This document shows, piece by piece, positions 10,926 through 30,616 of a DNA stretch of 30,862 nt (position 1 is its first letter; the number at the start of each line of letters is the position of its first letter). The translations under genes were made by a program, and so were the position numbers. This DNA comes from a virus. The stretch spans positions 1-30,862 of the IMG/VR virus record IMGVR_UViG_3300030117_001087. One strand, 5' to 3'. The notes beneath the pieces are model-generated. The model was given only the letters and a program-made list of their open reading frames with translations, was not told the DNA's origin and made no database searches.

Positions 10926-10926
10926 T

Positions 10927-14155: not shown

Positions 14156-14164
14156 AACGAACCC

Positions 14165-15594: not shown

Positions 15595-15604
15595 ATCATA
15601 TCCT

Positions 15605-15630
15605 TAAAAGGTAGCCCCCCGAAGGGGGCT
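15605..15630 (-). terminator. Intrinsic terminator or attenuator downstream of ssb
   Basis: On the minus strand AGCCCCC-TTCG-GGGGGCT forms a perfect 7-bp stem closed by a cUUCGg tetraloop, followed three bases later by TTTT. It lies between the SSB stop and the next gene in an otherwise gapless operon. The T-run is short, so partial read-through is likely. Confidence 0.8.
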
Positions 15631-15647
15631 TAGTTGAGAGAGGAGTA

Positions 15648-16157: not shown

Positions 16158-16171
16158 ATGGCCCTCCTTTG

Positions 16172-18016: not shown

Positions 18017-19617
18017 GCTGCAATTACACTCCCTTGATATGGCGCTTCTTCAGTTAGTATGGTAGTCTCTGGATCGTAGTAGACTGACCCTGCTCTACCT
18101 AATTTAGCAAACGGTCTGTTTTTGTCAACAATAAAGTTAGTGGTATTCTGAATTACCTCATCATCTGACTCAACGTCACGTTCAATCTTTATACATATGA
18201 TAGCCTCTTCTTCAAGAGACCCTGCATACTTTGTACGTCCATCATCATTAACCTGTGATATAAACACCACACCTATGTTGAGTTCCTTAGCAAGCTGTGC
18301 CATACGTGAACCCAACGTGGTGAGTGTACTTGTCGCACCATCTACACCAGACTGGGATAGATATGCAAGTCGTTGAACGTGATCAACAAAAATAAAATCA
18401 GCTCCGTACACAGATGCAGCGAGTCTAGTATAGTCGAGTAGCTTAAGAGGATCGTCATGACTGCGCATTTCAAAAACAATGGTACGTTCTCCTTGTGTCA
18501 TATCCTGTGCGGCTTTGATTACACTATCTTCTGAGTAACCATTCTCCTTGGTATCATCTCTAGTTCTAACATTTATACCAAGGTGATAGGTAGCCATAGC
18601 ACGATAGGTTGTGGACTTCATCTCCTCCATGTGTAGTAGAGCTATGCGTGTATCGTTGTCACGCAATAGCCCAGTCTCAAAGTACCGAATAACTTCGGTC
18701 TTACCAGTACCACGAGGAGCTTTGATAAAGGTAAGACCTCCCTTAACCATACCACGTATCTTGTCATCGAGGCCAGAATGACCAGTGGGTACATACTCGT
18801 AAGGGTTTTCATTTAAGATTGCCTGTTCGACATCTACATCAGAGCAGAAGAAATTTTCTGGTGAGTAACGTTGTGGTTTCTTTGCAGCCCACATCAGATC
18901 ATTACCATCGCCATGCTCTAGAAAGTCATTGGCATCTTTGTGTTTGGTCATAGGAACATACCAGAACTTATCTGGAAATGCTTGATAAATTTTGTCAGCA
19001 GCTCTACGTCCTGCGTCATCTAGCTCACCTGCATAGATGATCTCTTTGAATGACGACAGGTAAGCATGATTGTGCTTGATAAACTTCTCACCAATGCTTG
19101 CACTAGGTAGAGACTTAACAGGAAATGTTTTGCCAAGTATCTGATAGAGAGATGCGGCATCAAACTCACCCTCAGTTATATAGATACGTTGGCTAGTACC
19201 TGCGTTAAACTCAGGGCCAAACAAGAAGTGCATACCAAGTCCCTTGTCTTTCATCCAAGTCTTGGACTTATCTTGATAGGCTCTGTACTTAATGGTGTGT
19301 GGATACTTGTAGGCATAGCGTATCGGTCTACCCTCACTAGTCTGTAACTGTATCCCGTATAACTCACAGACATCAGCATCAATACTTCTGATACCATCGT
19401 AAGTCATACCATCAATTTCTATATCCATGATATTTCTCCTCTCTTTAAGTGGATACTCTTGTGCTACCCAGTCAAAAACTTCTGGCATGTTTTTCATCGG
19501 GTAGGAATTACCGCATGAATGACAGTGACCATAGCCATCATCATTCCAGTTGAATGCATCACTTGATCCGCAATCTACATACGGACAAGCTAAATGTGGG
19601 TTATCGTTTTCTGCCAT
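18013..19617 (-). CDS. Primase-helicase, T7 gp4-like
   Basis: 534 aa. An N-terminal zinc-binding domain (Cys11, Cys16, Cys32, Cys35) reads the primer site. A TOPRIM primase domain follows, with TEGEFDAA (Glu149) and GELDDAG (Asp200, Asp201). The helicase domain has Walker A APRGTGKTE (300-308), Walker B DFIFVDH (407-413) and a RecA-type core with ISQVNDDGR. It unwinds the fork and primes the lagging strand with the polymerase downstream. It overlaps a 58-aa membrane protein gene by 17 bases and lacks a strong ribosome-binding site, so coupled translation is likely. Confidence 0.94.
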   Translation of the reverse strand: MAENDNPHLACPYVDCGSSDAFNWNDDGYGHCHSCGNSYPMKNMPEVFDWVAQEYPLKERRNIMDIEIDGMTYDGIRSIDADVCELYGIQLQTSEGRPIRYAYKYPHTIKYRAYQDKSKTWMKDKGLGMHFLFGPEFNAGTSQRIYITEGEFDAASLYQILGKTFPVKSLPSASIGEKFIKHNHAYLSSFKEIIYAGELDDAGRRAADKIYQAFPDKFWYVPMTKHKDANDFLEHGDGNDLMWAAKKPQRYSPENFFCSDVDVEQAILNENPYEYVPTGHSGLDDKIRGMVKGGLTFIKAPRGTGKTEVIRYFETGLLRDNDTRIALLHMEEMKSTTYRAMATYHLGINVRTRDDTKENGYSEDSVIKAAQDMTQGERTIVFEMRSHDDPLKLLDYTRLAASVYGADFIFVDHVQRLAYLSQSGVDGATSTLTTLGSRMAQLAKELNIGVVFISQVNDDGRTKYAGSLEEEAIICIKIERDVESDDEVIQNTTNFIVDKNRPFAKLGRAGSVYYDPETTILTEEAPYQGSVIAA

Positions 19618-19777
19618 AGATCAAATCCCAAATCGTTTCCAAGATTACTAATACAGAAATTATTGGCCATGTCAAGGCAAAAATTAAAGGACTGCCATAT
19701 TCTACCTCTTCTACTATGGTTAATACTAGTATAGCACCTAGTAAATAGAGAACCATTCCTGAAAAATACATACTCAT
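19601..19777 (-). CDS. Small two-helix membrane protein (58 aa)
   Basis: Begins MSMYFSGMVLYLLGAILVL and ends in basic YGRKR. Two hydrophobic stretches, residues 4-22 and 30-47, predict a hairpin in the membrane. Support: AGGA 8 bases before the ATG, ATGA overlap with the preceding gene, and a 17-base overlap into the primase-helicase gene. The size and topology would allow a small holin or superinfection-exclusion protein, but its early-operon position argues against a holin. Unknown function. Confidence 0.65.
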   Translation of the reverse strand: MSMYFSGMVLYLLGAILVLTIVEEVEYGSPLIFALTWPIISVLVILETIWDLIYGRKR

Positions 19778-20115
19778 GAGTTTGTCCTTTTGTTCATCTT
19801 ACTTCTGTGCATTGCACGTAATCTTTCATCGTCTGTCATTTCACGTATTGAATTGTTATAATGTTTGTTATCATTATATTCAACAATAATACCAGTATTC
19901 CAATTTTTTTGTTCAGCTACAGCATCTTCATAAGTATCAAACAATTTAGGTTCTGGGTGGTTAGGAAATGCTTTTGTATCTTCTGGTACGTACATCATGT
20001 CTCCATCCACATCAATTAGCACTGCATATTTCATAGTTATTCCTTTCATCCATCGTTTTTTATAGTGCATATACATTTCTTCATCCCAACTTTCTATATG
20101 CCATTGGTCTGTCAT
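19774..20115 (-). CDS. Hypothetical protein with possible internal start
   Basis: 113 aa from ATG 20115 (MTDQWHIESW), which has AAGGAG about 9 bases upstream but overlaps the previous gene by 35 bases. A second in-frame ATG at 20034 (MKYAVLIDVDGDMMYV) has its own AAGGA 6 bases upstream and would give an 86-aa protein that starts directly with a beta strand. Both may be used. No family recognised; the C-terminus is basic (MHRSKMNKR). The ATGA overlap couples it to the membrane protein that follows. Confidence 0.55.
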   Translation of the reverse strand: MTDQWHIESWDEEMYMHYKKRWMKGITMKYAVLIDVDGDMMYVPEDTKAFPNHPEPKLFDTYEDAVAEQKNWNTGIIVEYNDNKHYNNSIREMTDDERLRAMHRSKMNKRTNS

Positions 20116-20332
20116 TCCTCTCTCTCCTTCTATCTACTGTATTTTCTGGCAGACAAACTATATCTATAACAGGATCATTAAAACCTGCCACTGCAATTAT
20201 TTCTATTGCAAGTGTATCATAATTGTCAGGGCTATTGACATAACTTACGCAAGCATCCTCATGTTCAAAAGATTTATTAAAGACAATGAAAGGATTACCC
20301 ACAGTTAAGGTCACTAATATTACCCAGTTCAT
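20081..20332 (-). CDS. Small protein with hydrophobic N-terminus (83 aa)
   Basis: Starts MNWVILVTLTVGNPFIVFNK, a weak signal-anchor or beta-rich segment, then an acidic middle and a basic C-terminus (DRRRERNDR). Two Cys (28, 60). The start overlaps the previous stop by ATGA. Its 3' end overlaps the next gene by 35 bases if that gene starts at 20115. No function recognised. Confidence 0.55.
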   Translation of the reverse strand: MNWVILVTLTVGNPFIVFNKSFEHEDACVSYVNSPDNYDTLAIEIIAVAGFNDPVIDIVCLPENTVDRRRERNDRPMAYRKLG

Positions 20333-20559
20333 TCTTCTATTTCCATCACTCTAATTTTAATAGGCTTTAACATCTTGTATTCTGGACACTCTGTTCTAAC
20401 CCAAGGTTGTTTTGACATGTCCCAATTATATTTTGAGTACCCTGAGATATTGACACTGTCAGGATTTACCTTACGTTTCCACGTACTTCTGCCCCACTTA
20501 GCTGTTACTAATTTATTTTTTGCTGTATCTTTAATAGCCCACATTTCTACATCAATCAT
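20329..20559 (-). CDS. Small basic hypothetical protein (76 aa)
   Basis: The start at 20559 (MIDVEMWAIKDTAKNK) is chosen because GGAGGT lies 9 bases upstream and the ATG overlaps the preceding stop as ATGA; longer in-frame starts at 20580 and 20640 lack ribosome-binding sites and lie within the upstream gene. The protein is basic and Trp-rich (WGRSTWKRK). No family recognised. Confidence 0.6.
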   Translation of the reverse strand: MIDVEMWAIKDTAKNKLVTAKWGRSTWKRKVNPDSVNISGYSKYNWDMSKQPWVRTECPEYKMLKPIKIRVMEIEE

Positions 20560-20726
20560 CTGGTATCTACCTCCAAACATGCTAGTGTTTCTGAGCTGTG
20601 GTTGACTAACACCACCGCTTCTTTCAATGCCAACTGGCAATCTTCTTTCTTACCATAAGATCCTAACTGGTAGTAATCAACTCCTTGATTAGTTACAAGT
20701 TGCATCCATACTAATATCCACATCAT
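20556..20726 (-). CDS. Small hypothetical protein (56 aa)
   Basis: Reads MMWILVWMQLVTNQGVDYYQ and continues with a helical Cys- and Val-containing part. AGGAG lies 9 bases before the ATG, the start directly abuts the upstream stop at 20727, and the stop overlaps the next ATG (ATGA). The hydrophobic N-terminus could be a short signal-like segment. Gene status is supported by the coupling rather than by homology. Confidence 0.55.
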   Translation of the reverse strand: MMWILVWMQLVTNQGVDYYQLGSYGKKEDCQLALKEAVVLVNHSSETLACLEVDTR

Positions 20727-20918
20727 CTATAATTTCTCCTGTAATGATACACCATAAACATTTACTTCGTAGTTGTTAATCTTCTTAGACATAATATCTT
20801 GTAAGCAATCCTCTAACTGTATCTCTTGATTAGTTTGTAGATTACCTTCAACTACTTCTTTAAACAGCTCTACTATAATCTCTCGTATCATCTGTTTATT
20901 TGTGTCGTTAATTATCAT
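20727..20918 (-). CDS. Small acidic helical protein (63 aa)
   Basis: Starts MIINDTNKQMIREIIVELFK; acidic and helical for its first 45 residues, with a beta-like tail. It overlaps the methylase stop by one base (TGATG). No domain recognised. It lies between the methylase and a run of small genes in the same operon. Confidence 0.55.
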   Translation of the reverse strand: MIINDTNKQMIREIIVELFKEVVEGNLQTNQEIQLEDCLQDIMSKKINNYEVNVYGVSLQEKL

Positions 20919-21337
20919 CAGTTCTTCCCCTTAAAAACCACGATCATACTGTCGTGCATACCTGCCTTGTTAGTTACTTTTTCTCCAAAAGAATTAATAC
21001 CAATAAATCTAACCCTACCTCTTATAAATCTAATTTCATTTGCGTTGGGTTGAATAAAGTCGTGAAATAAAACTGTGCTAGTGCTAACAGGTAAAAGCAT
21101 CACGCACAATTTACCCTTATCAGATTCATCAATAGCTTTTTTAACAAAAGCCTCCTTTAACCTTCTTGAATATGGAGGATTAATAAAGTTTCTTTTTCCC
21201 CAATCAATTTTTAAACCATCAAAGTCTGAGAACAAAGGGCATGGGTCAAAATCAAAATTAAACTCTTGATCTAATTTATCATATAGGTCATTAGGTGTTG
21301 CCCAATTATCGTGATTATCTAAATTTCTATTCTTCAT
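20918..21337 (-). CDS. DNA N6-adenine methyltransferase, phage Dam family
   Basis: 139 aa. NWATPNDLYDKLDQEFNFDFDPCP (from residue 11) and the catalytic NPPYS (53-57) are the signatures of the phage Dam-type adenine methylase family. It would methylate adenine in phage or host DNA, protecting phage DNA or tuning regulatory sites; the recognition sequence cannot be read from the protein. No partner restriction enzyme is seen beside it. The 5' end overlaps the previous gene by 11 bases. Confidence 0.9.
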   Translation of the reverse strand: MKNRNLDNHDNWATPNDLYDKLDQEFNFDFDPCPLFSDFDGLKIDWGKRNFINPPYSRRLKEAFVKKAIDESDKGKLCVMLLPVSTSTVLFHDFIQPNANEIRFIRGRVRFIGINSFGEKVTNKAGMHDSMIVVFKGKN

Positions 21338-21650
21338 CAGTCCTCTCTTTTCTTGCTAACTCCAATCCTTTGCGTAGCATTTCTTTTGCATCTTCATACT
21401 GCCCTCTGCACATACAATCATAGCTCCACCTAATCCATGACATAGCACCCATGTTTAATTCAGTGGCCTCACTTGTAATGTCTTGACTATCAGTGATAGC
21501 ACCACCGCCTACCTTATTGGCATTGAGAAACATTAACAAGCTAGGCTTGTCTACTGGCACATCGACAGGGGTGTAGGCTTTGCCACATATCTTACGTGCA
21601 TCTGCTTGTGTACCTGCCCATACACCATTGCTGTTTCTATATAGTTTCAT
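21327..21650 (-). CDS. Hypothetical protein (107 aa)
   Basis: Begins MKLYRNSNGVWAGTQADARK, a small beta-rich domain, and ends in a charged helix (YEDAKEMLRKGLELARKER, 85-103). Similar proteins occur in marine phage replication modules, from memory, with no known role. Its start overlaps the integrase stop by ATGA, so it is the first gene translated after the integrase; an excision or regulatory role is possible but unsupported. Confidence 0.6.
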   Translation of the reverse strand: MKLYRNSNGVWAGTQADARKICGKAYTPVDVPVDKPSLLMFLNANKVGGGAITDSQDITSEATELNMGAMSWIRWSYDCMCRGQYEDAKEMLRKGLELARKERTDEE

Positions 21651-22531
21651 TGTCTTTGTCTCCTCTCTAATGCAGACTGTGCTGTTTTTAAACTAAATTT
21701 ATTATACGGATTTAAACTTGATACACTCTTGTGACCAGAGACAGACTGGATAGCTAGGTGATCTACTCCACTTTCTATCATTTGTACTATCGCAGTCTTT
21801 CTCAAGTCACCAACTCGCAGGTCATCAGGAAGACCTACAGTAGCCTTAACTTCTCCAAGCAGGGAGGTCATCTGGGATACTGTTAGTGGTCTGTAGGCAC
21901 TGTCCTGTGGCCTGTGATGAGGTACTACATATTCTTGAAAGTCCCAATCCTTTTTCTGTTCAGTTAGCATTTCTAATAAGTTGTCAGGTATTGGTAGTTC
22001 AACGGTAGCACCACGTTTACTTTGAGTGATTGTAACTTTACCTTGTTCTAAGTCAACTGATTCCCAAGTCAAGTTACGAATGTCTATAGGTCTTTGCCCC
22101 CACTCATAACACATGAGAACAATTAGCCCTATGTTTCTCCACTCAAAATTACCGAAGGCAGTGTCAAGAAAAGACATCACTTGGTCATGTGTCCATATCA
22201 CAGATCGAGGTTCGCTTGATCTCTTCTTGACTCTAGCCATCGGGTTGTTTGGTATCTCATCTATTGAGATTAGAAAATTCATAAGAACTGAGAACACCCT
22301 AGCAATATGGTTTGCGTTTGCTGTTGATGTTCCCAGTTCTACTGTATCGTATATCTCTAGACACATAGCAGGGTTAATCTTCTTGATGTTAACGTTGCCA
22401 AGTGTCTTGCCCATAACAGACATACGACAGATAGATGCTAGAGCATACTCATAGTTTAGTTGAGAGGATCTAGACAGGGAGCTAAACTGTCTGGTTCTAA
22501 AGTATTTCTCCATAGCATCTTTTAGTTTCAT
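21647..22531 (-). CDS. int: Tyrosine recombinase (integrase)
   Basis: 294 aa from ATG 22531, chosen over a TTG at 22555 because AGGA lies 5 bases upstream and it couples to a micro-ORF. An N-terminal SAM-like arm-binding domain (about 1-95) precedes the catalytic domain with Arg147 (WGQRPIDI), Lys172, Arg244 (GDLRKT), His267 (SGHKS) and nucleophile Tyr276 (NPYNKF). The usual His of the HxxR box is Gly241. It would recombine attP with a host attB; no tRNA-like attP core was found nearby. Presence of an integrase suggests a temperate life cycle. Confidence 0.9.
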   Translation of the reverse strand: MKLKDAMEKYFRTRQFSSLSRSSQLNYEYALASICRMSVMGKTLGNVNIKKINPAMCLEIYDTVELGTSTANANHIARVFSVLMNFLISIDEIPNNPMARVKKRSSEPRSVIWTHDQVMSFLDTAFGNFEWRNIGLIVLMCYEWGQRPIDIRNLTWESVDLEQGKVTITQSKRGATVELPIPDNLLEMLTEQKKDWDFQEYVVPHHRPQDSAYRPLTVSQMTSLLGEVKATVGLPDDLRVGDLRKTAIVQMIESGVDHLAIQSVSGHKSVSSLNPYNKFSLKTAQSALERRQRQ

Positions 22532-22593
22532 ATCTTTCCTATCCAGTGTGTGCAATCATCATGTGAGTCGTCAGGTTTTTGGTATACTTCCAT
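22528..22593 (-). CDS. 21-aa leader ORF coupled to integrase
   Basis: ATG at 22593 begins MEVYQKPDDSHDDCTHWIG and ends TGA overlapping the integrase ATG (ATGA). AAAGGA lies 5 bases upstream. It is the first reading frame after the candidate promoter. Likely a translational-coupling leader; whether the peptide itself acts is unknown. Confidence 0.5.
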   Translation of the reverse strand: MEVYQKPDDSHDDCTHWIGKI

Positions 22594-22723
22594 GTTATCC
22601 TTTCCTACTTAAAGTATAACTTAAAGTATCTAATAACTTTTAATTATAATTATTAAATACCTATAGTTATACTTTAAGTAATACATATATGCAAATCATA
22701 TCTTAGTCAAGCGTGACACAGTG
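22594..22723 (-). promoter_or_regulatory. Integrase operon promoter/operator region
   Basis: This AT-rich gap holds dyad TACTTAAAGTA at 22606-22616, AACTTAAAGTA at 22618-22628 (12 bases on) and the reverse complement at 22670-22680. The 16-mer at 22606-22621 recurs exactly inverted at 22665-22680. On the minus strand TATACT (22618-22613) and TATAAC (22671-22666) could be -10 boxes toward the integrase. No consensus -35 is seen, so an activator or phage factor may be needed. It is also the likeliest place for attP, but no core is evident. Confidence 0.6.
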
Positions 22724-22727
22724 TCAC
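22713..22727. repeat. Perfect 7-1-7 palindrome GTGACACAGTGTCAC
   Basis: GTGACAC-A-GTGTCAC spans the stop codon of the metallopeptidase gene. There is no T-run after it on either strand, so an operator is more likely than a terminator. It borders the integrase control region. Confidence 0.6.
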
Positions 22728-23704
22728 ATACTATATCTAGTAGTAGATATTTTGTTGTATAAATTAGGGTCATCTATCTTACATTCCTCCATTAAGTCTA
22801 GTGGTGTCATGCCTAGTGAGTCCAGTAACTCAGCGACAGCAAAAGGATTATCTGCGACAATCTCAAAGAGTTGACCTACATTATCCATACTACTTTCGTA
22901 GGCATAACTACCCACACCAAAATCCTCATAGCCTAAGCTGTACCCATACCGACTACCTCTACTAATAGTCTCAGTAATAGTTGGGTCACGCTCAAACACT
23001 AGCTTAGACCAGTCAGCATTCTCCAATGCATACACTAGCTTTTCTAGGTATGCTAAGTCCTGTGACTCAGTGGTACTGTGTTGGCTGTAGTAACCAACGC
23101 TAATGTTAGTACACTCAGATACAATCTCAGCATACTCATTGCTGTCAGTGTATGAACCACCAGTATCAGGCTTGAGCTGTGGCATATTGAGTGCATCTGC
23201 AAATGAATTAGCAAAGGCATCTGATGCAGTACGAAAGCCCATCTGGTGTGTGATCACAGAGTTGTCACCGTACCTGTCAAAAGATATTACAGCCTTGGTG
23301 TAGGTAAGCCACATCGGGTAGTCTCTCACCATCTCCATGCTACCTCTACAGCCAATCTCCTCAGCCGCATGGATAACATACGTACCCTCAATACCTGCCT
23401 CAATCATAGACAGTATGACGTATATACCAGAGGTACAGTCAGCACCTAGACAGCTAGATACTTTGGGGTCAGCCACAGTCACTACATCATTGGTGACTAC
23501 TAGCTTCTGCATACCGCCCTGTCTATGCACAGTGTCATGGTGTGCAGTAAAACAAAGCTTGGGTTTGTCGCCTACCTGTAAGATGTAGTTGCCATGATCG
23601 TCAGGTTTGCCAAAGGTTGGTTCAATGAATCGTTCACAAAACAACTGTTGTGCGTCTGATCCTTGGGGTCTCATGTACCCCAACATTTCTATTATACTAT
23701 ACAT
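22724..23704 (-). CDS. M20/M28-like zinc metallopeptidase
   Basis: 326 aa. All expected metal ligands and the general base are visible: His55-x-Asp57 (TAHHDTVH), Asp89 (GADCTSG), Glu115/Glu116 (HAAEEIGCRGS), Asp143 (SFDRYG) and His209 (YYSQHSTTE). This is the co-catalytic di-zinc aminopeptidase/carboxypeptidase arrangement, so the enzyme is probably active on peptides or acylated amino acids in the cytoplasm. There is no signal peptide. Such enzymes are unusual in phages; peptide recycling, host protein processing or maturation of a small peptide are possible roles. GAGGAG lies 6 bases before the ATG; the start overlaps the upstream stop. Confidence 0.82.
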   Translation of the reverse strand: MYSIIEMLGYMRPQGSDAQQLFCERFIEPTFGKPDDHGNYILQVGDKPKLCFTAHHDTVHRQGGMQKLVVTNDVVTVADPKVSSCLGADCTSGIYVILSMIEAGIEGTYVIHAAEEIGCRGSMEMVRDYPMWLTYTKAVISFDRYGDNSVITHQMGFRTASDAFANSFADALNMPQLKPDTGGSYTDSNEYAEIVSECTNISVGYYSQHSTTESQDLAYLEKLVYALENADWSKLVFERDPTITETISRGSRYGYSLGYEDFGVGSYAYESSMDNVGQLFEIVADNPFAVAELLDSLGMTPLDLMEECKIDDPNLYNKISTTRYSM

Positions 23705-25359
23705 TATAGCTCCTCTTCAGTTAATGGTTCTGGTTTCGTGTAGTAGATGCCATCTCTATCTCGGAGATACCACTCTTCATCATGGTCATCCAGTGCTTGC
23801 TTACACACCTTCTCACCGTCCTCAGTTCTACACATCTCGTCATTGGGATACCACTCGCTAGTCCAATCACACTCAAAGTAATCAGCCTCAAGAGTAATCG
23901 GGTCACACCAGATATCTTGTGACTCAATGTATACAGCACTATCGTTATCCCAATACTCACCGTCAGTCTCACAGTAGATAAAGTCATCACCGTACTCGAT
24001 GACACTGGTAGCAACCATCTCAGTATAGCTGTAACCACTACTACCCATAATATATACTGTAGTAGTATCATCTCTGTGTACATCACAATCTGCATACTCA
24101 CAGTAGATATGCTCTTCATAGTAACAGGACTCACAGTAGTATTCCTCTGTAGTTTCTGAGAAGTAGTACTGATCTTCGCAAAGACCCTCTTCACAACGGT
24201 GGCAGTGATACTCATGTCCACCAAGTATACCGCTGTAGTTACTGGCATCAATCTCACCGTAACTATCTACAACAAGATACTCACCGTCATCAGTCAAATG
24301 TTGTGGACATATGTCTAGGTAAGGTGCAATGAAACCCTCACCGTCAGGGTTAGGTATCCTGCACAGTCTAGCACCAGACCAGTCAGAACTACCTGCCTGT
24401 ACTGCATTCATAACATCAGTCAGGTGATTGTTAATCATGTCAATAGACTGCTCGGATACACCATATATCGGGCCAGCTTGGGGTGCACTATTATTAGTAG
24501 TATTGATAGCAACCACACACCTACTACACACTAGACCGTCTTGATCTAGTACATAGATGATCTTGAAGTCACCACTGGCATAAGCCTCGGCAGGATGTTG
24601 AGGTAGGTTAGAGAACTCATACCGCATACAGCTGTGAGCCATGTGCTTTCTCTTGTAGGTAGTCTGCACGTTCTCACTATTAGACTGCTCACCAGAGTAT
24701 GCAAGTGCAAACTCTTTTGGGTCTTCCGATACATGAAGCCCAAGCTCACGGGGTGCAAACTTCTGTAGGTATGCATCAGTAATCTCATTGAGTGTGTTGT
24801 GATCGAACTCAGGAAACATAAGCTTGATAGCACGAGCAGGTCGCATAGCAGTCTCACGATCATCATCCAAATCCTTGTGCGATTTGTACAAGGTGATCTT
24901 ACCTGTGTACCGCTGTGAACGTCTACAGTTAAATGCTCGCAACCTATACTTAGGTTTGAACTTATCACTGGTAAACAACTTACCATCTTTCTTATGATGA
25001 GATATGTCGATACCATTGATAATGTTCAGAAACCAATCTTGTATAGTGTGGTCACTAACATTAAACAATGCACCATCATAGTCACCCCATGCACGAAGCA
25101 CAGGGTCAGACTCATTAGGATCTTCACGATACTGCTTCTTGACTACGAAACCATACTTCTCAGGTGTAACCAAGTAATACATACTACCATCAGATAGCTG
25201 TACATTACCGCCAACGAGTGTGGGTTTACCATTGTCACTACCCCACATAAGATTATCAAACAGGTGTGGTTGATATGGTACAAGCTTGTCACATATATCA
25301 TCACCATAATGGTTTCTGATCTCATCAGTATTTACTGGAACGAGTGTGTAATTTGCCAT
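23704..25359 (-). CDS. Large Cys-rich protein with zinc-ribbon-like C-terminus
   Basis: 551 aa from ATG 25359 (MANYTLVPVN), which has GGAGGT 6 bases upstream; a longer start at 25386 overlaps the neighbour. The N-terminal 350 residues contain conserved-looking phage segments (KYRLRAFNCRRSQRYTGK near 137-154; HPAEAYASGDFKIIYV near 255-270). The C-terminal 170 residues carry CxxC at 386/389 and 409/412, C420-x4-C425 and Cys 463, 485, 497, 510 and 519, with many Tyr, Asp and Glu, suggesting serial zinc-binding modules. I know similar phage proteins but no function. It overlaps the metallopeptidase start by one base. Confidence 0.7.
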   Translation of the reverse strand: MANYTLVPVNTDEIRNHYGDDICDKLVPYQPHLFDNLMWGSDNGKPTLVGGNVQLSDGSMYYLVTPEKYGFVVKKQYREDPNESDPVLRAWGDYDGALFNVSDHTIQDWFLNIINGIDISHHKKDGKLFTSDKFKPKYRLRAFNCRRSQRYTGKITLYKSHKDLDDDRETAMRPARAIKLMFPEFDHNTLNEITDAYLQKFAPRELGLHVSEDPKEFALAYSGEQSNSENVQTTYKRKHMAHSCMRYEFSNLPQHPAEAYASGDFKIIYVLDQDGLVCSRCVVAINTTNNSAPQAGPIYGVSEQSIDMINNHLTDVMNAVQAGSSDWSGARLCRIPNPDGEGFIAPYLDICPQHLTDDGEYLVVDSYGEIDASNYSGILGGHEYHCHRCEEGLCEDQYYFSETTEEYYCESCYYEEHIYCEYADCDVHRDDTTTVYIMGSSGYSYTEMVATSVIEYGDDFIYCETDGEYWDNDSAVYIESQDIWCDPITLEADYFECDWTSEWYPNDEMCRTEDGEKVCKQALDDHDEEWYLRDRDGIYYTKPEPLTEEEL

Positions 25360-25360
25360 A

Positions 25361-25852
25361 TTAAGACCTCCAATCTGGCTCCTCACCCCAACGCCATGTC
25401 AAGGTGATGTTACGTTCTTTCCAACGATCATTCATATACATTCGATATGCTTGATGCACATCATCTATATCTGAATAATCAACTCCACGTTCTAAATTCC
25501 TAGCACAGTTTGCAAACGGTGTCAAGTACTCATCTGGAAAATCTCCATCATCTACATACTTTTGGAACTCAGGTATCAGTCTGGCAGACTTGTGGTCTCC
25601 AGATTTCTGATTGTATAGCCAACTCATGTGGTGTAGTAGCCACTGGAAGTTAGCACGAGACTGTCTTGCCCACTTACTGCATGGGTGATTTAGGTATGCA
25701 GTTTTGTAGACTTCAAGTGTAGTGTCAGGACACAAAGCCCTCACTGCGGTGGACAACATTTGTGCAGACTCAAGTATCATCTTGTTCTTACGAATGTCAT
25801 CCAACCACAGAGCTGACCGCATCGGACACTTGTCAAATGCAAATATATTCAT
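25361..25852 (-). CDS. Conserved phage protein, possibly DNA-glycosylase-related
   Basis: 163 aa. MNIFAFDKCPMRSALWLDDI, then KMILESAQMLSTAVR (24-38) and NHPCSKWARQSRANFQWL (55-72) match a phage family sometimes annotated as pyrimidine-dimer glycosylase-like. I recall the family pattern but cannot confirm activity. It is all-alpha, with Trp-rich segments. GGAGG lies 4 bases before the ATG, which overlaps the upstream stop (TAATG). Confidence 0.6.
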   Translation of the reverse strand: MNIFAFDKCPMRSALWLDDIRKNKMILESAQMLSTAVRALCPDTTLEVYKTAYLNHPCSKWARQSRANFQWLLHHMSWLYNQKSGDHKSARLIPEFQKYVDDGDFPDEYLTPFANCARNLERGVDYSDIDDVHQAYRMYMNDRWKERNITLTWRWGEEPDWRS

Positions 25853-26220
25853 TAGTCCTCCATCGTTTTAATAGCATCAGCTATATCCATTAGCTTACCT
25901 TTTAGCCACAGATTATCCATGTCCTTGTTCATAAGTTTAACTCTCAAGTTAGTCAACTCATCTAGTAGGAATGCATTATCCTTTTTCGTAACCATCCACT
26001 CCCTTTGCTCACGTTTCTTCAAGGCAGGTTGCATAGCTTCAGCATACATATGACGAGAACGATGCTTGTTATTATAACCTAAAACCACACGCCATCTACC
26101 TATAGACCTTCTGTCTACACCATATTTGGCTTGTGTTTCCACACCAGTATGATGCGTGTAGTATTGACACACCTCATGCTTGAATGAGTTTGGGTAACGA
26201 TGTTGTTTAGAATTTGCCAT
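25852..26220 (-). CDS. HTH DNA-binding protein with coiled coil
   Basis: 122 aa, basic. Residues about 9-46 (RYPNSFKHEVCQYYTHHT..., GVDRRSIGRWRVVLGY) look like a transposase- or homeodomain-type helix-turn-helix. A basic linker and a leucine-containing helix (DNAFLLDELTNLRVKLMNK, 82-99) follow, which could dimerise. It is the best candidate in this window for a phage transcription factor acting on the operator arrays, but this is inference. GGAG lies 8 bases upstream. Confidence 0.6.
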   Translation of the reverse strand: MANSKQHRYPNSFKHEVCQYYTHHTGVETQAKYGVDRRSIGRWRVVLGYNNKHRSRHMYAEAMQPALKKREQREWMVTKKDNAFLLDELTNLRVKLMNKDMDNLWLKGKLMDIADAIKTMED

Positions 26221-26249
26221 GTTTATATCTCCTCACATGAACGGTTGAA

Positions 26250-26465
26250 TTATGCATTGCTTACAATGCGACTGATTAGATTGGTTACATCCTTGATCTC
26301 ACCACTAGGCATATGTAGTTTAAAACCCATATCAGTATGACCAAAGTCCTCATCATCTTTTTGCAGACGATACACTATTTCATTGAGGCTAGTGCCCTCC
26401 TCATAGATAGGCATGAAACCACCATCAGTTTCATACCAACCTTCCAGTATAACTTTATGTGTCAT
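26250..26465 (-). CDS. Small hypothetical protein (71 aa)
   Basis: Begins MTHKVILEGWYETDGGFMPI; a small acidic beta-type protein. Its 5' end overlaps the 37-aa gene upstream by 11 bases. No family recognised. A 29-base gap follows before the HTH gene. Confidence 0.55.
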   Translation of the reverse strand: MTHKVILEGWYETDGGFMPIYEEGTSLNEIVYRLQKDDEDFGHTDMGFKLHMPSGEIKDVTNLISRIVSNA

Positions 26466-26568
26466 CTTTCATCATCCCTTCACATATTCTACGATAACTT
26501 GTTATAATTACAACACGCCCATTATCATCATAAAGGACGTACTTCTTGCCACTCTTTACTATTCTCAT
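26455..26568 (-). CDS. Tiny basic protein (37 aa)
   Basis: MRIVKSGKKYVLYDDNGRVV followed by a short basic/acidic tail; looks like a single small beta sheet. A purine-rich AAGGTGG lies 5 bases before the ATG, the ATG overlaps the upstream stop (ATGA) and the gene overlaps the next by 11 bases. No homology recognised. Confidence 0.5.
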   Translation of the reverse strand: MRIVKSGKKYVLYDDNGRVVIITSYRRICEGMMKDDT

Positions 26569-26807
26569 ATATCCACCTTTACATCTGGAACAGTGGGAGT
26601 TTCCCACACATCTACTTTGAACTCAGGTTCAGGGTAAAGAGAACGCATCTCACTTACCAAGTCAGTTAAATTTTCCCTGTCGTTCCACTCATCTTTAGGC
26701 ATTAATAGTGTGTTAATCCTAAAGTAAAAAGCATAGGTATACTCGTCCATACCTACACGCCACCTACGTTGTAGTGTGCGCCTAGACACATTTATTCTAT
26801 AACTCAT
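26565..26807 (-). CDS. Small hypothetical protein (80 aa)
   Basis: Start at 26807 (MSYRINVSRRTLQRRW) preferred: GGAGGT lies 10 bases upstream and the ATG follows the previous stop by one base; an ATG at 26825 lacks a ribosome-binding site. The N-terminal 20 residues are strongly basic, the rest acidic. Could bind nucleic acid, but no fold is recognised. Confidence 0.55.
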   Translation of the reverse strand: MSYRINVSRRTLQRRWRVGMDEYTYAFYFRINTLLMPKDEWNDRENLTDLVSEMRSLYPEPEFKVDVWETPTVPDVKVDI

Positions 26808-26808
26808 A

Positions 26809-27012
26809 TTACATTTCACCTCCATGATTAGACACTACAGCTCTTAGAAAGCTAACTCCTGCGTTCACATCACAACCTATACCATAGGCTTTATCAATGC
26901 TCACATCATCACTATACAATAGGTCTATCATTTTACCATCTAATGGACAAGATACGAACCCATATTTAGCAAACATATTTATTATTTTATTTTTGTAATC
27001 CAGAAAATTCAT
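26809..27012 (-). CDS. Small hypothetical protein (67 aa)
   Basis: MNFLDYKNKIINMFAKYGFV at the start, two Cys (22 and 47), alpha/beta pattern. It begins one base after the stop of the 51-aa gene. The last codons GGAGGTG supply the ribosome-binding site of the next gene. No function recognised. Confidence 0.55.
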   Translation of the reverse strand: MNFLDYKNKIINMFAKYGFVSCPLDGKMIDLLYSDDVSIDKAYGIGCDVNAGVSFLRAVVSNHGGEM

Positions 27013-27013
27013 A

Positions 27014-27169
27014 TCACACCTCTATCTTTATGGTTTCAATAATTACATTACACTTAGTATCTTGGATAGCTTCAGCTTTCGAATCTATAGCTTCCCAAAT
27101 ACAATGGTGGTCTGAGTATACCCATGCACCATGACCAGAATTAGTTACAATTACTACATATAAATCCAT
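27014..27169 (-). CDS. Small hypothetical protein (51 aa)
   Basis: MDLYVVIVTNSGHGAWVYSD, then HHCIWEAIDSKAEAIQD. A beta-alpha-beta pattern with several His; it resembles the small phage proteins with a YVV/WEA pattern but no family is named. AGAGGT lies 5 bases before the ATG. Confidence 0.55.
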   Translation of the reverse strand: MDLYVVIVTNSGHGAWVYSDHHCIWEAIDSKAEAIQDTKCNVIIETIKIEV

Positions 27170-27172
27170 ACT

Positions 27173-27331
27173 TTACCTCTCTATTTCAAAACATAAACTA
27201 GTCACATTTTCCCTAGTGACTGGAACAAAATAAGACGCACCATTAGCGTCAGTTTTCACAAGGTATTTCACGCCATCAAAGGTTACAAAGTAACCAAAGG
27301 ACGCACCATACCTGTCCAGAAATTTATCCAT
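27173..27331 (-). CDS. Small hypothetical protein (52 aa)
   Basis: MDKFLDRYGASFGYFVTFDG followed by another beta-rich half ending FEIER. GAGGAG lies 6 bases before the ATG, inside the end of the upstream gene. Likely a small beta-rich domain. Function unknown. Confidence 0.55.
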   Translation of the reverse strand: MDKFLDRYGASFGYFVTFDGVKYLVKTDANGASYFVPVTRENVTSLCFEIER

Positions 27332-27334
27332 ACA

Positions 27335-27574
27335 TTACTCCTCTATTGATGTCCAAACTAGATTTATCCAATCCACCGGAATAGTTTGACCGTTGTATCG
27401 ACATTTAGATCGTACTTCAACAGTGCCTATGTCACCATGAAATTGAGGGCAAGTAGCCTTAACAATTTTGATATCATAATGACTATCTACTATGTCACCA
27501 TAATTGATAGACTTAGAGTTAAAATAACCCATAAGTCTAAAAACTTCACCATCATTATTTTTTTGTTCAATCAT
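27335..27574 (-). CDS. Small hypothetical protein (79 aa)
   Basis: MIEQKNNDGEVFRLMGYFNS; the middle (IKIVKATCPQFHGDIGTVEV) suggests a beta-barrel-like fold. AGAGAGGTG lies 5 bases before the ATG. Several genes in this unit share the AGAGAGGT ribosome-binding sequence, which suggests similar translation rates. No function recognised. Confidence 0.55.
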   Translation of the reverse strand: MIEQKNNDGEVFRLMGYFNSKSINYGDIVDSHYDIKIVKATCPQFHGDIGTVEVRSKCRYNGQTIPVDWINLVWTSIEE

Positions 27575-27577
27575 ATA

Positions 27578-27934
27578 TCACCTCTCTATATAAACGTGTG
27601 GTCTATTGTTTTCATCTAAAATTAATATGGCATACTCTGCATTATATATCGGCTCATGAGTGTCCACATCATAAAAATACCCGTACTTGTACGGATCATA
27701 TTTAACTTTTCTTAGCCCATTAGTGTTGGGTTGTGCGTCCAAAGTTTTCATTTCACCTTTTAAAAAGGCATGGACATTTTTCTGCTTGTCTCTAAGCACA
27801 GCTGCCCTACCACCTGCTCGTACTACAAAAATTGGACGTTCCACTTTTACAGTTTTTGCATAGGATACCGGCACACTTTTTGCACGGATAGAGTATATCC
27901 TTTTGTTAATATTATAATAAATTTCTCTAATCAT
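27578..27934 (-). CDS. Basic hypothetical protein (118 aa)
   Basis: Strongly basic with Tyr-rich segments: MIREIYYNINKRIYSIRAKS and VVRAGGRAAVLRDKQKNVHA. Probably binds nucleic acid or sits in a complex; no family is recognised. AGAGAGGTG lies 6 bases upstream. It is the first gene after the regulatory gap at 27935-28081. Confidence 0.6.
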   Translation of the reverse strand: MIREIYYNINKRIYSIRAKSVPVSYAKTVKVERPIFVVRAGGRAAVLRDKQKNVHAFLKGEMKTLDAQPNTNGLRKVKYDPYKYGYFYDVDTHEPIYNAEYAILILDENNRPHVYIER

Positions 27935-28081
27935 TCTACACCTCTCTATTGATTAGACACAATTTTAGTGTCTGGATTTTATGTCCAGTCACAATTATAT
28001 CGTACTTTTTCTAAGTAGATATAATACTAAGCCATCACAAATTATGCAATGGCTCAGGTTATATTTACTTTAAGTTATTAA
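27935..28081 (-). promoter_or_regulatory. Leftward promoter/leader with three hairpins
   Basis: On the minus strand AACTTAAAGTA (28076-28066) is followed two bases later by TATAAC (28063-28058), and a TATAAT lies at 27999-27994. Three hairpins are visible: AGCCAT/ATGGCT (28030-28054), TGGA/TCCA (27973-27987) and GACAC/GTGTC (27956-27972). No clear -35. Likely a promoter plus structured 5' leader for the small-gene unit. Confidence 0.5.
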
Positions 28082-28573
28082 TTAAGCAGCTTTTTTCTTG
28101 CTCACTGTTGCTCTTTGAGCTTGTAATGCTGCAATCATAGCTTCTAATTGATCTGGTCTAGCCGTTGCCATGCGAGCAGCCCATGCCGCTGGATCAAAAG
28201 CTTTAGGCTCAGTATCAGTTGAAAAAGCCTTTTTCCAATTACTACCCCTCATAGACACTTGACCTGATACCTCGGATAAAGTTTTAACAGCACTATTAGA
28301 TAGCGTTGCATCCTTAATCTTAATGGAAATAACTTTACCATTTTTCGTTTTAATCTTTGCACCTATCCAAATTTTACCGGTTGTTACTCTAAGTTGACTA
28401 GTCAATGCTGTATCACATCTATTGATTGAGGCGTTCATGGCTTTAACTAGTGGGGTAGTGTCACCGGTTTTGATAACATGATCCACAATAGATTTATAAT
28501 AGACGCCTAAGTTGATACCGTTACCGATATTGTTTGAAAAATTCTTTACTACGTTTTCAATAATTGAAGTCAT
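28082..28573 (-). CDS. Conserved hypothetical protein, basic C-terminus (163 aa)
   Basis: MTSIIENVVKNFSNNIGNGI; helical N-terminus, then a beta-rich middle (GKIWIGAKIKTKNGKVISIKIKD split across residues 66-88) and a C-terminal Ala-rich helix ending in SKKKAA. The basic tail and leading position in the leftward unit suggest an abundant early DNA- or RNA-binding protein. AGAGAGGA lies 8 bases before the ATG. No domain recognised. Confidence 0.6.
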   Translation of the reverse strand: MTSIIENVVKNFSNNIGNGINLGVYYKSIVDHVIKTGDTTPLVKAMNASINRCDTALTSQLRVTTGKIWIGAKIKTKNGKVISIKIKDATLSNSAVKTLSEVSGQVSMRGSNWKKAFSTDTEPKAFDPAAWAARMATARPDQLEAMIAALQAQRATVSKKKAA

Positions 28574-28756
28574 TTTTTTAATCCTCTCTATAAAATTAAT
28601 GACAAACGATTTTTACCAAAGCAAAAACCATAATAGGCACAAGATAAATTATCTCATGCCTACAAGCTTTTCACTTTACTTACTTTTGAGCGGTTATGCG
28701 TACTATTAAACCCTTGCTAATAGGTTTTAATAAACTAGCCACTTGCCATAAAATAT

Positions 28757-28814
28757 TTTGATAAAATCAACGGAGGCCAAGAAGTGAATTGACCGTGACC
28801 TTTGATAAAATCAA
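28757..28814. repeat. Two copies of TTTGATAAAATCAA
   Basis: The 14-mer occurs at 28757-28770 and 28801-28814, start to start 44 bases. Each copy is a dyad (TTGAT-AAA-ATCAA). The spacing is about four helical turns. It could bind a dimeric protein or form small hairpins. Similar half-sites to FNR boxes but with a 3-base, not 4-base, centre. Confidence 0.6.
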
Positions 28815-29180
28815 ACGTTATAATCTTATAGCGCATTGCTAATTAACACTATATCTCTTTTTCATTTTCGGGTTTTGCATTTGCTACCCGTTACCCCTTC
28901 TACACGAGACCCCAAGTAATAATCACTTACTACCTAGTAATCCGTTACTAACTTCTATTTATCTCTGAGCTTCCTAAAACTGCTTTCGCTTTTTGAGACT
29001 ATCCCCTGACTGTATGTTTAAGAATACACTTATTGAACATCTATCAATTTTGGGAAGCGTCAACTTGCCCTAGTCATTAACTAGGTAGTAAAGGCTAAAC
29101 TCTAAAATACTTATTCTAAACCGTTAGGAAGTTTACTCTTTGGAAGTAAACTGAATAAGAAAGTATTTCCGCTAGTTATC

Positions 29181-29208
29181 GGTAAATGATCCGTTACCAT
29201 AAGATCAT
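29181..29208. other. Possible H-type pseudoknot
   Basis: GGTAA (29181-29185) pairs with TTACC (29194-29198), and ATGATC in its loop (29186-29191) pairs with GATCAT (29203-29208). The crossing arrangement is that of an H-type pseudoknot and holds on either strand. Short stems, so it needs testing by probing or covariation. Confidence 0.4.
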
Positions 29209-29226
29209 GTTGTTTTAATGATATGG

Positions 29227-29316
29227 AAAAAACTACCCTTAGTAATACGCCAACAACAAAGCGTCTAAGCTTTATAACATAGTGATAAGCATTGCCTATC
29301 GGTTATGGTAGTTTTT
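29227..29316. other. Possible three-way-junction RNA element
   Basis: A perfect 10-bp outer stem AAAAACTACC (29228-29237) / GGTAGTTTTT (29307-29316) encloses CTTAG...ACGC / GCGT CTAAG (29238-29269) and GCTT(T)AT / ATAAGC (29269-29290). This is the longest perfect stem in the noncoding region. Confidence 0.45.
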
Positions 29317-29345
29317 AAATTTCAAATAACGTTGGAGGGTCTAAA

Positions 29346-29383
29346 CTCTGAAAATCTCACTCCGAAAATCAGCTCCTAAAATC
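29346..29383. repeat. Three degenerate tandem repeats CTCYGAAAATC
   Basis: CTCTGAAAATC (29346-29356), CTCCGAAAATC (29360-29370) and CTCCTAAAATC (29373-29383), period 13-14. They follow the three-way-junction element. Their role is unknown; protein-binding iterons or linker RNA are possible. Confidence 0.55.
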
Positions 29384-29477
29384 TCCCTAAACTATCTCAC
29401 AAATAATGGCAAGCAAATAATTCAATTTTTTTTCGAGATTAAATTGGTGGTTAAATTGAGGGTTTTATCAGCAGCTT

Positions 29478-29494
29478 AAAAAAAAATTTTTTTT
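29478..29494. other. A9T8 tract, possible bent or melting DNA
   Basis: Nine A followed by eight T, next to GTATACATATG. Such tracts bend DNA or melt easily and are common at promoters and replication origins. No further origin signature is proven, though GAACAAAAGTA repeats lie 29 bases away. Confidence 0.45.
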
Positions 29495-29522
29495 GTATAC
29501 ATATGTGCAGAGACTGGACAAA

Positions 29523-29544
29523 AGAACAAAAGTAGAACAAAAGT
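29523..29544. repeat. Tandem 11-mer AGAACAAAAGT
   Basis: Two exact adjacent copies at 29523-29533 and 29534-29544, with a partial third (GGACAAAA) before them. The 11-base period places copies on the same face of the helix. Confidence 0.6.
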
Positions 29545-29554
29545 AGGGCGATTG

Positions 29555-29674
29555 ATGAACAGTATTTTGCGGGTACTCAACCTTATAAAAAAGCCTTCAC
29601 CCTACTCAGTGAGGCTTAAAATGGCTCTAAACGTTTTGTTATCTTTATGTTTACTATTTGTTCTACTAATTTAG
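29555..29674 (+). CDS. Possible 39-aa hydrophobic peptide
   Basis: MNSILRVLNLIKKPSPYSVR continues into a hydrophobic C-terminal half (MALNVLLSLCLLFVLLI). AGGG lies 6 bases before the ATG. A basic amphipathic start plus a short membrane helix is the look of type I toxin or small lysis peptides. The sequence also contains the leftward terminator hairpin, so the frame may be accidental. No homology recognised. Confidence 0.35.
   Translation: MNSILRVLNLIKKPSPYSVRLKMALNVLLSLCLLFVLLI
29587..29617 (-). terminator. Leftward intrinsic terminator
   Basis: On the minus strand AAGCCTCAC-TGAGTAGG-GTGAAGGCTT forms a 9-bp stem with one bulged base, followed by a T-run (six T including the stem end). It would stop leftward transcripts coming from the operator region before they enter the structured region. 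Confidence 0.65.
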
Positions 29675-29746
29675 TTTAAGGTTAAATTACTTTTGAAATA
29701 TAGTTTAACGTTAAACTACTTTATATATTTTCGTTTAGAGTTAAAC
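29674..29746. promoter_or_regulatory. Operator array 1: three GTTTAACGTTAAAC-type dyads
   Basis: GTTTAAGGTTAAAT (29674-29687), GTTTAACGTTAAAC (29703-29716, perfect 14-bp palindrome) and GTTTAGAGTTAAAC (29733-29746), start to start 29 and 30 bases. Regular spacing near three helical turns suggests cooperative binding of a dimeric regulator. Confidence 0.65.
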
Positions 29747-29758
29747 AAAATGTAGAAC

Positions 29759-29840
29759 GTGATCACAAAACTAGGGGTATATTAAAATGTGATCACAAAT
29801 TTATAGTCGTACATGATTTAATGCTTTTTGTGATCACAAA
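29759..29840. promoter_or_regulatory. Operator array 2: three GTGATCACAAA sites
   Basis: The exact 11-mer GTGATCACAAA occurs at 29759-29769, 29789-29799 and 29830-29840, start to start 30 and 41 bases, all in the same orientation. The core GTGATCAC is a perfect palindrome centred on GATC, a site that Dam-type enzymes can methylate. Confidence 0.7.
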
Positions 29841-29847
29841 TTCAAAA

Positions 29848-29883
29848 TGTTATATTATAACAGTGTGATATTGGTATTCTTAA
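29848..29883 (-). promoter_or_regulatory. Possible leftward promoter with palindrome
   Basis: On the minus strand TTAAGA (29883-29878), 18 bases, then TATAAT (29859-29854). The -10 lies inside the 7-1-7 palindrome TGTTATATTATAACA (29848-29862). Transcripts would run through both operator arrays to the terminator near 29.6 kb. Confidence 0.4.
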
Positions 29884-29963
29884 TAGTATATTGTGTAAAA
29901 TACTTAATAAATACAGTATGTTAAACGAAAAAGAGATACTTTTTTTATCTTTTGACCTAGTGT

Positions 29964-29990
29964 TATGTTATAACATAGCATACCGGTATG
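29964..29990. repeat. Adjacent palindromes TATGTTATAACATA and CATACCGGTATG
   Basis: A perfect 14-bp palindrome (29964-29977) and a perfect 12-bp palindrome (29979-29990) lie one base apart. GGGTA...TACCC follows at 29999-30023. The stretch from here to 30152 holds no convincing gene; it includes near-repeats CAATTTGTGTAT and CAAATTGTGTAT around 30090-30131. Confidence 0.5.
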
Positions 29991-30152
29991 GGACACTGGG
30001 GGTACCTACGTATATATATACCCAGAATGACAGAAATTAGGAAAATTAGGTTGTTAACCACTTTGTTTTAAACTTGTTACAATTGAAACAATTTGTGTAT
30101 AGACTGTAATATGTTGTAACAAATTGTGTATTGGTGTTACATAAATTAATAC

Positions 30153-30194
30153 TTGACAGCGGGGGCATTATGAGATATAATTATGTATACATAA
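30153..30194 (+). promoter_or_regulatory. Consensus sigma70 promoter with operator at start site
   Basis: TTGACA (30153-30158), 17-base spacer, TATAAT (30176-30181): a perfect consensus promoter reading right. The 14-bp palindrome TTATGTATACATAA (30181-30194) covers the predicted start at about 30188, ideal for repression. It would drive the rightward operon at 30365 with a leader of about 180 bases. Confidence 0.8.
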
Positions 30195-30264
30195 CGTATT
30201 ACTTAAAGCTTAACTTAACTCTATTATTACTAATATAATTAGAGTTAATAGATACTAAGAGTAA

Positions 30265-30360
30265 TACTTAAAGTAATACTTAAAGTACTGACGCATATTT
30301 AAACTTTTTTCTGTCGTCCCTATAAAAGTACTTGCTTTTCCTAAAACTTAAAGTATAACT
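30265..30360 (+). promoter_or_regulatory. TACTTAAAGTA dyads and second promoter
   Basis: TACTTAAAGTA at 30265-30275 and 30277-30287 (12 bases apart) and AACTTAAAGTATAACT at 30345-30360. TATAAC (30354-30359) with TTGCTT (30332-30337) 16 bases upstream could be a weak promoter whose start would fall on the ATG at 30365. The same elements occur upstream of the integrase and at 28.06 kb. Confidence 0.6.
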
Positions 30361-30364
30361 ACCA

Positions 30365-30616
30365 ATGTCCAAGAAAAAAATGTTTGCTTCGGATTCCGTT
30401 ATAGAGGAATTTTACAAAGCACTGGCTGATAACAACGAAGCAAAATTACGAAGAGTACATATACCACGTTCAGACGTATTCTATGTACGAGAAGCTATTC
30501 ATCAAAACACAGGTGTCAGGTATACTCTAGATAGAGTAGAACGTGCTATGTATTTGGAGGGGCATCTTAATAAGCATGACGTGTTAGACCCCGAAAGAAT
30601 AAGAGATTGGGAATAA
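30365..30616 (+). CDS. Small basic protein with HTH-like region (83 aa)
   Basis: MSKKKMFASDSVIEEFYKAL, then VFYVREAIHQNTGVRYTLDR (46-65) and VERAMYLEGHL. The second part could be a helix-turn-helix. It resembles a conserved marine phage family I cannot name. No ribosome-binding site precedes the ATG, and a -10-like TATAAC ends 5 bases before it, so a leaderless message is possible. First gene of the rightward unit; a regulator or small packaging protein are options. TAATG overlap with the next gene. Confidence 0.7.
   Translation: MSKKKMFASDSVIEEFYKALADNNEAKLRRVHIPRSDVFYVREAIHQNTGVRYTLDRVERAMYLEGHLNKHDVLDPERIRDWE

Follow-up and report, generated by a model that had tools for sequence, protein, structure and literature searches.

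A large structured leader RNA with a boxA-like 5′ motif predicted in HMO-2011-type phages

Results

The window, i.e. the whole stretch of DNA of 30,862 nt that was analysed (IMG/VR record IMGVR_UViG_3300030117_001087), contains a 1.79-kb gap (28574-30364) that is flanked on one side by a minus-strand early gene, termed gene 1, and on the other by a gene for an 83-aa protein that runs divergently on the plus strand (Table 1). A first-pass annotation had noted within this gap a stretch, 28590-29450, with no usable ORF on either strand, and this is borne out by the ORF list, in which a 65-aa overlapping frame at 28512-28709 is the sole frame. Gene 1 has the RBS-like sequence AGAGAGGA at 28582-28589. 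The folding energy of the minus strand over 28590-29340 is low (z = -4.1; 0 of 20 shuffles equally low), and with z = -1.5 for the plus strand of the same stretch, the excess is found on the minus strand only. We conclude that the minus strand almost certainly encodes an untranslated structured RNA of ~760 nt, from ~29332 to the start of gene 1 at 28573. As it lies behind a promoter-like site and ahead of the first early gene, this RNA would be the leader of the early operon. The block around the promoter-like site (29494-29521) is conserved in close relatives. At 29640-29860, upstream of the probable minus-strand promoter, palindromes of the form GTGATCAC(AAA) recur, together with inverted repeats of the TTTAAC/GTTAAA type; these are likely operators or an origin.

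Table 1. Features of the locus and their positions in the window
Feature	Position	Strand	Basis
Gene 1, 163 aa, first early gene	28082-28573	-	ORF
Last hairpin, ahead of the RBS, GGTTTTT..GTAAAAATC	28608-28629	-	pairing in relatives
3′ hairpin, terminator-like, TAGGCA..TGCCTA, tail TATGGTTTTT	28634-28662	-	terminator-like scan match
Conserved core: PA and three-way junction P1/P2/P3	28688-28896	-	alignment A1, covariance model R1
P1 closing helix, GTGT (28846-28849) with GCAT (28696-28699)	28696-28849	-	covariation
P3 arm, TATTAAAACC-TATTAGCAA-GGGTTTAATA	28704-28732	-	covariation
P2 arm, AATTAGC (28838-28844) with GCTAGTT (28733-28739)	28733-28844	-	covariation
Distal P2 loop region, window-specific insertion with duplicated GTTGATTTTATCAAA	28756-28819	-	alignment with relatives
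Hairpin PA, CGGGT-AGCAAATGCAAA-ACCCG	28869-28890	-	alignment A1
Central domain, more variable, between 5′ domain and core	28897-29178	-	comparison with relatives
Hairpin P4, TGATC-TTATGGTAACG-GATCA, and ACCGA motif	29179-29207	-	covariation
Pseudoknot, hairpin-loop GTTGTT (29252-29257) with AACAAC (29209-29214)	29209-29257	-	own-complement test
Helix H1, AAACTACC (29307-29314) with GGGTAGTTT (29230-29238), enclosing the internal hairpin domain	29230-29314	-	
boxA-like motif ACGTTATTTGAAATTT, 5′ landmark of the RNA	29317-29332	-	syntenic conservation, likeness to rRNA boxA
Imperfect hairpin, GGAGUGA loop, just upstream of the boxA-like motif, possible boxB-like element	29348-29372	-	read in sequence
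Promoter-like -35/-10, TTGTCC-16-TATACA, upstream of the RNA	29494-29521	-	consensus match; start putative
Divergent gene, 83 aa, other flank of the gap	30365-30616	+	

In IMG/VR, 478 relatives of the 83-aa protein were found, and 80 of them were fetched for comparison. Further matches of this protein are in cultured Roseobacter phages and in Puniceispirillum phage HMO-2011, which makes the window an HMO-2011-type phage. Phages of this type were reported among the dominant marine viral groups, and the integrase carried by the window agrees with the int-bearing HMO-2011 subgroups of the same study (PMC9038755). For the metagenomic relatives we infer Roseobacter hosts. Most relatives with enough sequence have a gap of ~1.1 to 1.8 kb without a convincing gene between the divergent genes, and no ORF is shared at the place of the RNA. 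Searches by blastn against GenBank phages with the stretch, with one relative and with a shorter leader (see below) gave no match. No clear prophage was found; a single scan of genome contigs gave one contig, L140 (NVWB01000161.1), which is filed under a Blastopirellula MAG and carries the 83-aa phage gene with 78% identity, and which is probably a phage contig binned into this MAG.

The protein encoded by gene 1 is predicted by AlphaFold2 to have a confident fold (pLDDT 87), belongs to no known family and gave no reliable match in structure searches of the PDB and BFVD. The gene-1 proteins of the window and of L013, L035, L037, L059 and L063 look mosaic, with varied N-terminal parts and a common C-terminal DQLEAMIAALQAQR segment. 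Strong hairpins (z about -5.4 on the plus and -5.8 on the minus strand) lie in the spacer that separates gene 1 from the next gene (27936-28081), and the scan marks one of them as terminator-like. The product of 27578-27934 belongs to the L5 gp82 family of mycobacteriophage proteins (PF25735, E 1e-20); in HMO-2011, the annotation of one gene notes similarity to L5 gp82.

The abundance of local stems and an octamer pair spanning about 520 bases had led the first-pass annotation to propose a structured RNA at this place. An RNA is indeed here, but not on these grounds: perfect inverted repeats of 6-9 bp occur at chance level in comparison with dinucleotide shuffles (23 local 6-mer inverted repeats vs 23.8 ± 5.7 expected), and the octamer pair, AACGTTAT at 28814 and 29326, 512 bases apart, is expected by chance as well (15 long-range octamer pairs vs 12.5 ± 5.2 expected), one of its arms falling within the conserved boxA-like motif. 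The decisive evidence is covariation across relatives, not the number of stems, and a check of covariation in related marine contigs had also been suggested at that time. The minus strand, the position as an early-operon leader and the host-rRNA-like boxA at the RNA start were absent from that reading.

The minus-strand alignment of relatives has conserved blocks with swapped stem sequences. When RNAalifold was applied without any hint to alignment A1, which comprises 15 distinct phages over window positions 28896-28688, it predicted 42 core pairs, and 28 of these show compensatory changes. The named core structure has a covariation score of 0.510 vs 0.208 ± 0.016 in shuffles, with one helix off by one, and versions slid by 1-3 columns score at most 0.19. 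The covariance model R1 recovered the held-out L081, L088 and L006, and then L178, L186 and L196, with E-values down to 5e-25; R1 was built with hairpin PA off by one, and its scores are therefore conservative for PA. In PA itself, three pairs have two-sided changes (GC/CG/AU/UA) and the first pair is invariant, the stem being CGGGT..ACCCG in the window, and CCGAC..GTCGG or CGCAT..GTGCG elsewhere. The closing helix P1 has GC, CG and UA at one position and CG/UA/UG at another, with 98% of cells paired, and occurs among the phages as GUCC/GGAU, GUGC/GCAU, GUUU/AAAU and GUUC/GAAU. All seven pairs of the proximal P2 helix change on both sides with 100% of cells paired; the P2 internal loop AAUGC/AAGUG is strongly conserved, and the distal helix is formed by GCTATAAGAT with ATTTTATGGC. 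In P3, 8 of 10 pairs have two-sided changes, and 92% of cells are paired. The insertion in the distal P2 loop (28756-28819) is missing in close relatives, and L186 and L196 have a larger one at this site.

At the 5′ end, type I members have in common a motif at or near CGYUAUUUGAMA; behind it come H1, a strand of the type UCCAU, a variable strand of six bases, and hairpin P4. In a further test of the pseudoknot, its downstream arm was fixed by sequence context. The exact Watson-Crick complement of the own 6-mer arm is present in the hairpin domain of 15 of 17 phages, including the window, and with G-U allowed in 17 of 17, and ten different arms are involved; the complement of another phage's arm was found in only 7 of 252 cross-comparisons, and the signal was confined to one of the nine offsets scanned. 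In seven phages, 95.2% of the cells of the named 5′ structure with pseudoknot form, and the covariation score of the 5′ domain is 0.512 vs 0.235 in shuffles and at most 0.14 in slid versions. In alignment A5, 5 of 8 H1 pairs have two-sided changes with 100% of cells paired, and 5 of 5 P4 pairs change on both sides. Counted over 10 arm pairs chosen by eye, 67/70 cells of H1 are paired vs 51.5/70 in shuffles, and P4 is paired in 50/50 cells over 10 distinct arm pairs, likewise chosen by eye, vs 23.3/50 in shuffled sequences; these by-eye tests are weaker than the context-defined pseudoknot test. In relatives, the central domain has an AUAUA-loop hairpin with covarying stems, of which the window has a divergent version. 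Compensatory mutations across the phages preserve the fold of the leader RNA, whose predicted architecture comprises a 5′ landmark motif, a pseudoknotted 5′ domain, a variable middle, a core with three-way junction, and 3′ hairpins.

Raw stem counts at chance level would agree with a chance structure in AT-rich DNA or with a decayed gene. The covariation refutes chance structure, and together with the pseudoknot, the held-out model matches and the lack of a shared ORF in relatives, it leaves this explanation practically negligible. A replication-origin transcript, i.e. a primer or origin RNA with the neighbouring AT-rich repeats as origin, is also very improbable: the adjacent 29.5-30.3 kb are AT-rich with palindromic repeats, and the site lies at the divergence point of two genome arms, but the conserved features are strand-specific pairs at RNA level, the 5′ motif is transcriptional, and there is no Rfam match.

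The phage motif ACGYTATTTGAMA at the 5′ end is close to the Roseobacter rRNA boxA ACGCTCTTTGAMA. Roseobacteraceae rRNA leaders were read from plasmids with rrn operons, and their boxA versions are ACGCTCTTTGACATCG, ACGCTCTTTGAAATTG and TTGCTCTTTGACATTG. With the rRNA boxA of Sulfitobacter, the window motif shares 13 of 16 positions, and as a match this good is not unique within the window, the case for boxA rests on conservation. Of 48 relatives, 40 have the motif in the 1.1 kb that precede gene 1, vs 0 of 184 background tiles; the relatives are not fully independent because there are near-identical contigs among them. The motif stands at a syntenic, fixed place before H1, heading the untranslated structured leader. 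In the best case, L053, ACGCTATTTGACATCGCAG has one mismatch over 19 nt to the Alloyangia rRNA leader ACGCTCTTTGACATCGCAG, the motif being identical to the host rRNA boxA at 15 of 16 positions. Position 4 of GYTC is most commonly A in the phages (G or T in some), C in the sampled Roseobacter boxA, and T in the rRNA boxA of S. meliloti. At this position, the phage motif departs from the gamma consensus GYTCTTTAANA, and in E. coli the suhB boxA was disrupted by a change here combined with another one (PMC5725501). The canonical GCTCTTTGA is present in L190/L191 and in the cobavirus-like contig L167. In phages with another gene-1 type, the motif was not found, and the isolates CRP-2, CRP-9, CRP-207, CRP-603 and HMO-2011 gave no covariance-model match and have no comparable motif ahead of gene 1; CRP-1, CRP-13 and CRP-345, whose records break inside the gap, were covered by the covariance model alone. 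As most phages depart at position 4, we regard the identity of the 5′ motif as a host-rRNA-type boxA as probable, not proven. The GGAGUGA-loop hairpin is found in the window, L022, L041, L081 and L088 with differing stems, and is variable or missing in the others; it is a weak candidate for a boxB-like element.

Where the gene-1 protein is of a different version, the phage leaders are shorter (359-442 nt); they too open with the boxA-like motif, and 23 of their 55 pairs are compensatory. The AUAUA-loop hairpin with covarying stems occurs in both leader versions and also in PQ867845, a Zobellviridae (Cobavirinae) genome. The contig L167 combines its canonical boxA with a CCCAC-GGCGAATGCAAA-GTGGG hairpin, and the cultured cobaviruses SIO1 and ICBM1 have ACGCTGTTTGACATT 269 and 194 nt, respectively, before the first early-arm gene, as the sole match to the relaxed motif pattern in each genome. 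In cobavirus L147, the motif and the AUAUA hairpin lie about 340 nt or less upstream of a different gene, and a gene-1 relative follows about 1.8 kb downstream. The leader of the window resembles the early leaders of cobaviruses (SIO1, ICBM1, PQ867845, L167) in that a boxA-like motif heads an early operon, and it shares hairpins with them, the AUAUA hairpin with L147 and the CGAATGCAAA hairpin with L167. Unlike the window RNA, the cobavirus leaders are shorter and are known by motif and hairpins, not by a full fold, and the covariance models gave no match in cobaviruses at a convincing E-value.

At the 3′ end, the stem of the 28634-28662 hairpin is swapped to TGAGCAATG..CATTGCTCA in L017 and to TAGGCC..GGCCTA in others, and the relatives differ in the stem letters of the last hairpin (28608-28629) yet pair, e.g. 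GGTTATC..GTAACC. As hairpins abut the RBS in aligned members, RNA types go with gene-1 types, and gene 1 has no other known function, the RNA could be a cis element for gene 1 alone, with the gene-1 protein or a ligand controlling attenuation at 28634-28662 or the translation start. We consider this quite unlikely, since the motif and AUAUA hairpin of L147 precede another gene, the co-occurrence of RNA and gene types may be simple linkage, and an autoregulatory leader would be expected to be smaller.

Rfam gave no match at gathering thresholds, neither for the window nor for 19 relatives, and a search of 28000-30400 for GOLLD, ROOL, OLE and HEARO, which had been named as candidate classes, gave none up to E = 10. 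The RNA is thus not GOLLD, ROOL, OLE or HEARO. The original proposal of a large ornate noncoding RNA, either a member of such a class or a new one, is supported insofar as the RNA is conserved, pseudoknotted and absent from Rfam. Models of group I and group II intron cores also gave no match up to E = 10; a resemblance of GAGATATAGTCC to group I introns was dropped, as there was neither a core nor an Rfam match.

Discussion

Our analysis identifies a phage leader or large ornate RNA whose family is uncatalogued in Rfam. It resembles GOLLD and ROOL in size class, phage origin, pseudoknots, and the combination of conserved and variable domains, which in GOLLD are a conserved 3′ region and a variable 5′ region (PMC12286853), but it differs from them in the missing covariance-model match, the position as mRNA leader, the boxA-like motif at the 5′ end, and the absence of a nearby tRNA, as the 30.9-kb window has no tRNA gene; the nearness of GOLLD and ROOL to tRNA islands is a tendency and not a strict criterion. 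The likeness to GOLLD (PMC12286853) would suit a stand-alone, trans-acting ornate RNA that is abundant in infection and perhaps self-assembling, for which boxA would just secure synthesis and the 3′ hairpin would end or process the RNA, with read-through feeding the early operon. That the terminator-like hairpin at 28634-28662 precedes gene 1, and that boxA otherwise heads rRNA, itself abundant and structured, also points in this direction. We nevertheless regard a stand-alone RNA as rather unlikely, because the RNA is always upstream of a same-direction early gene with the RBS directly behind, the U-tract of the 3′ hairpin is weak and missing in many relatives, and neither a nearby tRNA nor an Rfam match was found.

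In the leaders of Roseobacteraceae rrn operons, where boxA is the NusB/S10 site, ACGYT-TTTGAMAT likewise stands at the head of a long, highly structured RNA that is untranslated; unlike rRNA, the phage RNA precedes a protein operon, is unrelated in sequence, and usually has A and not C at position 4. The lambda nut sites (boxA-boxB) and the HK022 put RNA are short and act in cis on RNA polymerase. Like these, the RNA described here would be an early-operon leader close behind an early phage promoter, in our case a promoter-like site, but it has ~760 nt with pseudoknot and junctions. Its boxB-like hairpin is weakly supported; the helix behind boxA, H1, is no short hairpin of the boxB kind, and an N-like protein was not identified.

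In E. coli, long untranslated 5′ regions lead to Rho-dependent termination, which is relieved by the rRNA boxA, and the Nus/SuhB complex promotes the maturation of structured rRNA (PMC4807359). A 760-nt untranslated leader with boxA fits both roles, and we propose a mechanism of antitermination or fold promotion. The boxA-type 5′ motif would load host NusB-S10 and other Nus factors on RNA polymerase leaving the promoter, and the modified polymerase would then cross the long leader, and probably also the early operon, without Rho-dependent or intrinsic termination. Meanwhile, the Nus factors would help the leader RNA to fold, and the folded RNA could work in cis, much as nut or put sites do, as a scaffold of the Nus-polymerase complex, possibly partnered by the gene-1 protein. 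What we infer is processive antitermination that extends over the early operon and uses the fold of the RNA as its scaffold. At window positions 9700-29600, terminator-like sites outnumber those in shuffles (22 vs 9.3 ± 2.9), so that antitermination would be useful. It counts against antitermination that a simple nut-like site needs no 700 nt of ornate structure, and we see about an even chance that antitermination or fold-chaperoning is the main function of the leader RNA.

Noncoding or intergenic features are unmentioned in the HMO-2011 paper (PMC9038755), as are noncoding RNA and antitermination in the cobavirus paper; the open-licence literature had nothing relevant on noncoding RNA of pelagiphages, and an earlier description elsewhere is possible. 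The transcription control of HMO-2011-type phages was not described in the literature that we examined on these phages.

In summary, we tentatively suggest, with somewhat less than even confidence, that the RNA represents a new class of large pseudoknotted RNA machine in HMO-2011-type phages and cobaviruses of marine Roseobacters, which would borrow the host rRNA transcription apparatus via a boxA variant, and whose fold, with or without the gene-1 protein, may reprogram RNA polymerase or assemble an abundant RNA particle early in infection. As a family new to Rfam, it offers structural biology one more large ornate RNA, and the cultured cobaviruses SIO1 and ICBM1, which have the motif, offer a route to testing at least the boxA part. 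The association of a large leader RNA with a host-rRNA-like boxA thus provides a testable hypothesis of how phages without an RNA polymerase of their own may take over transcription.
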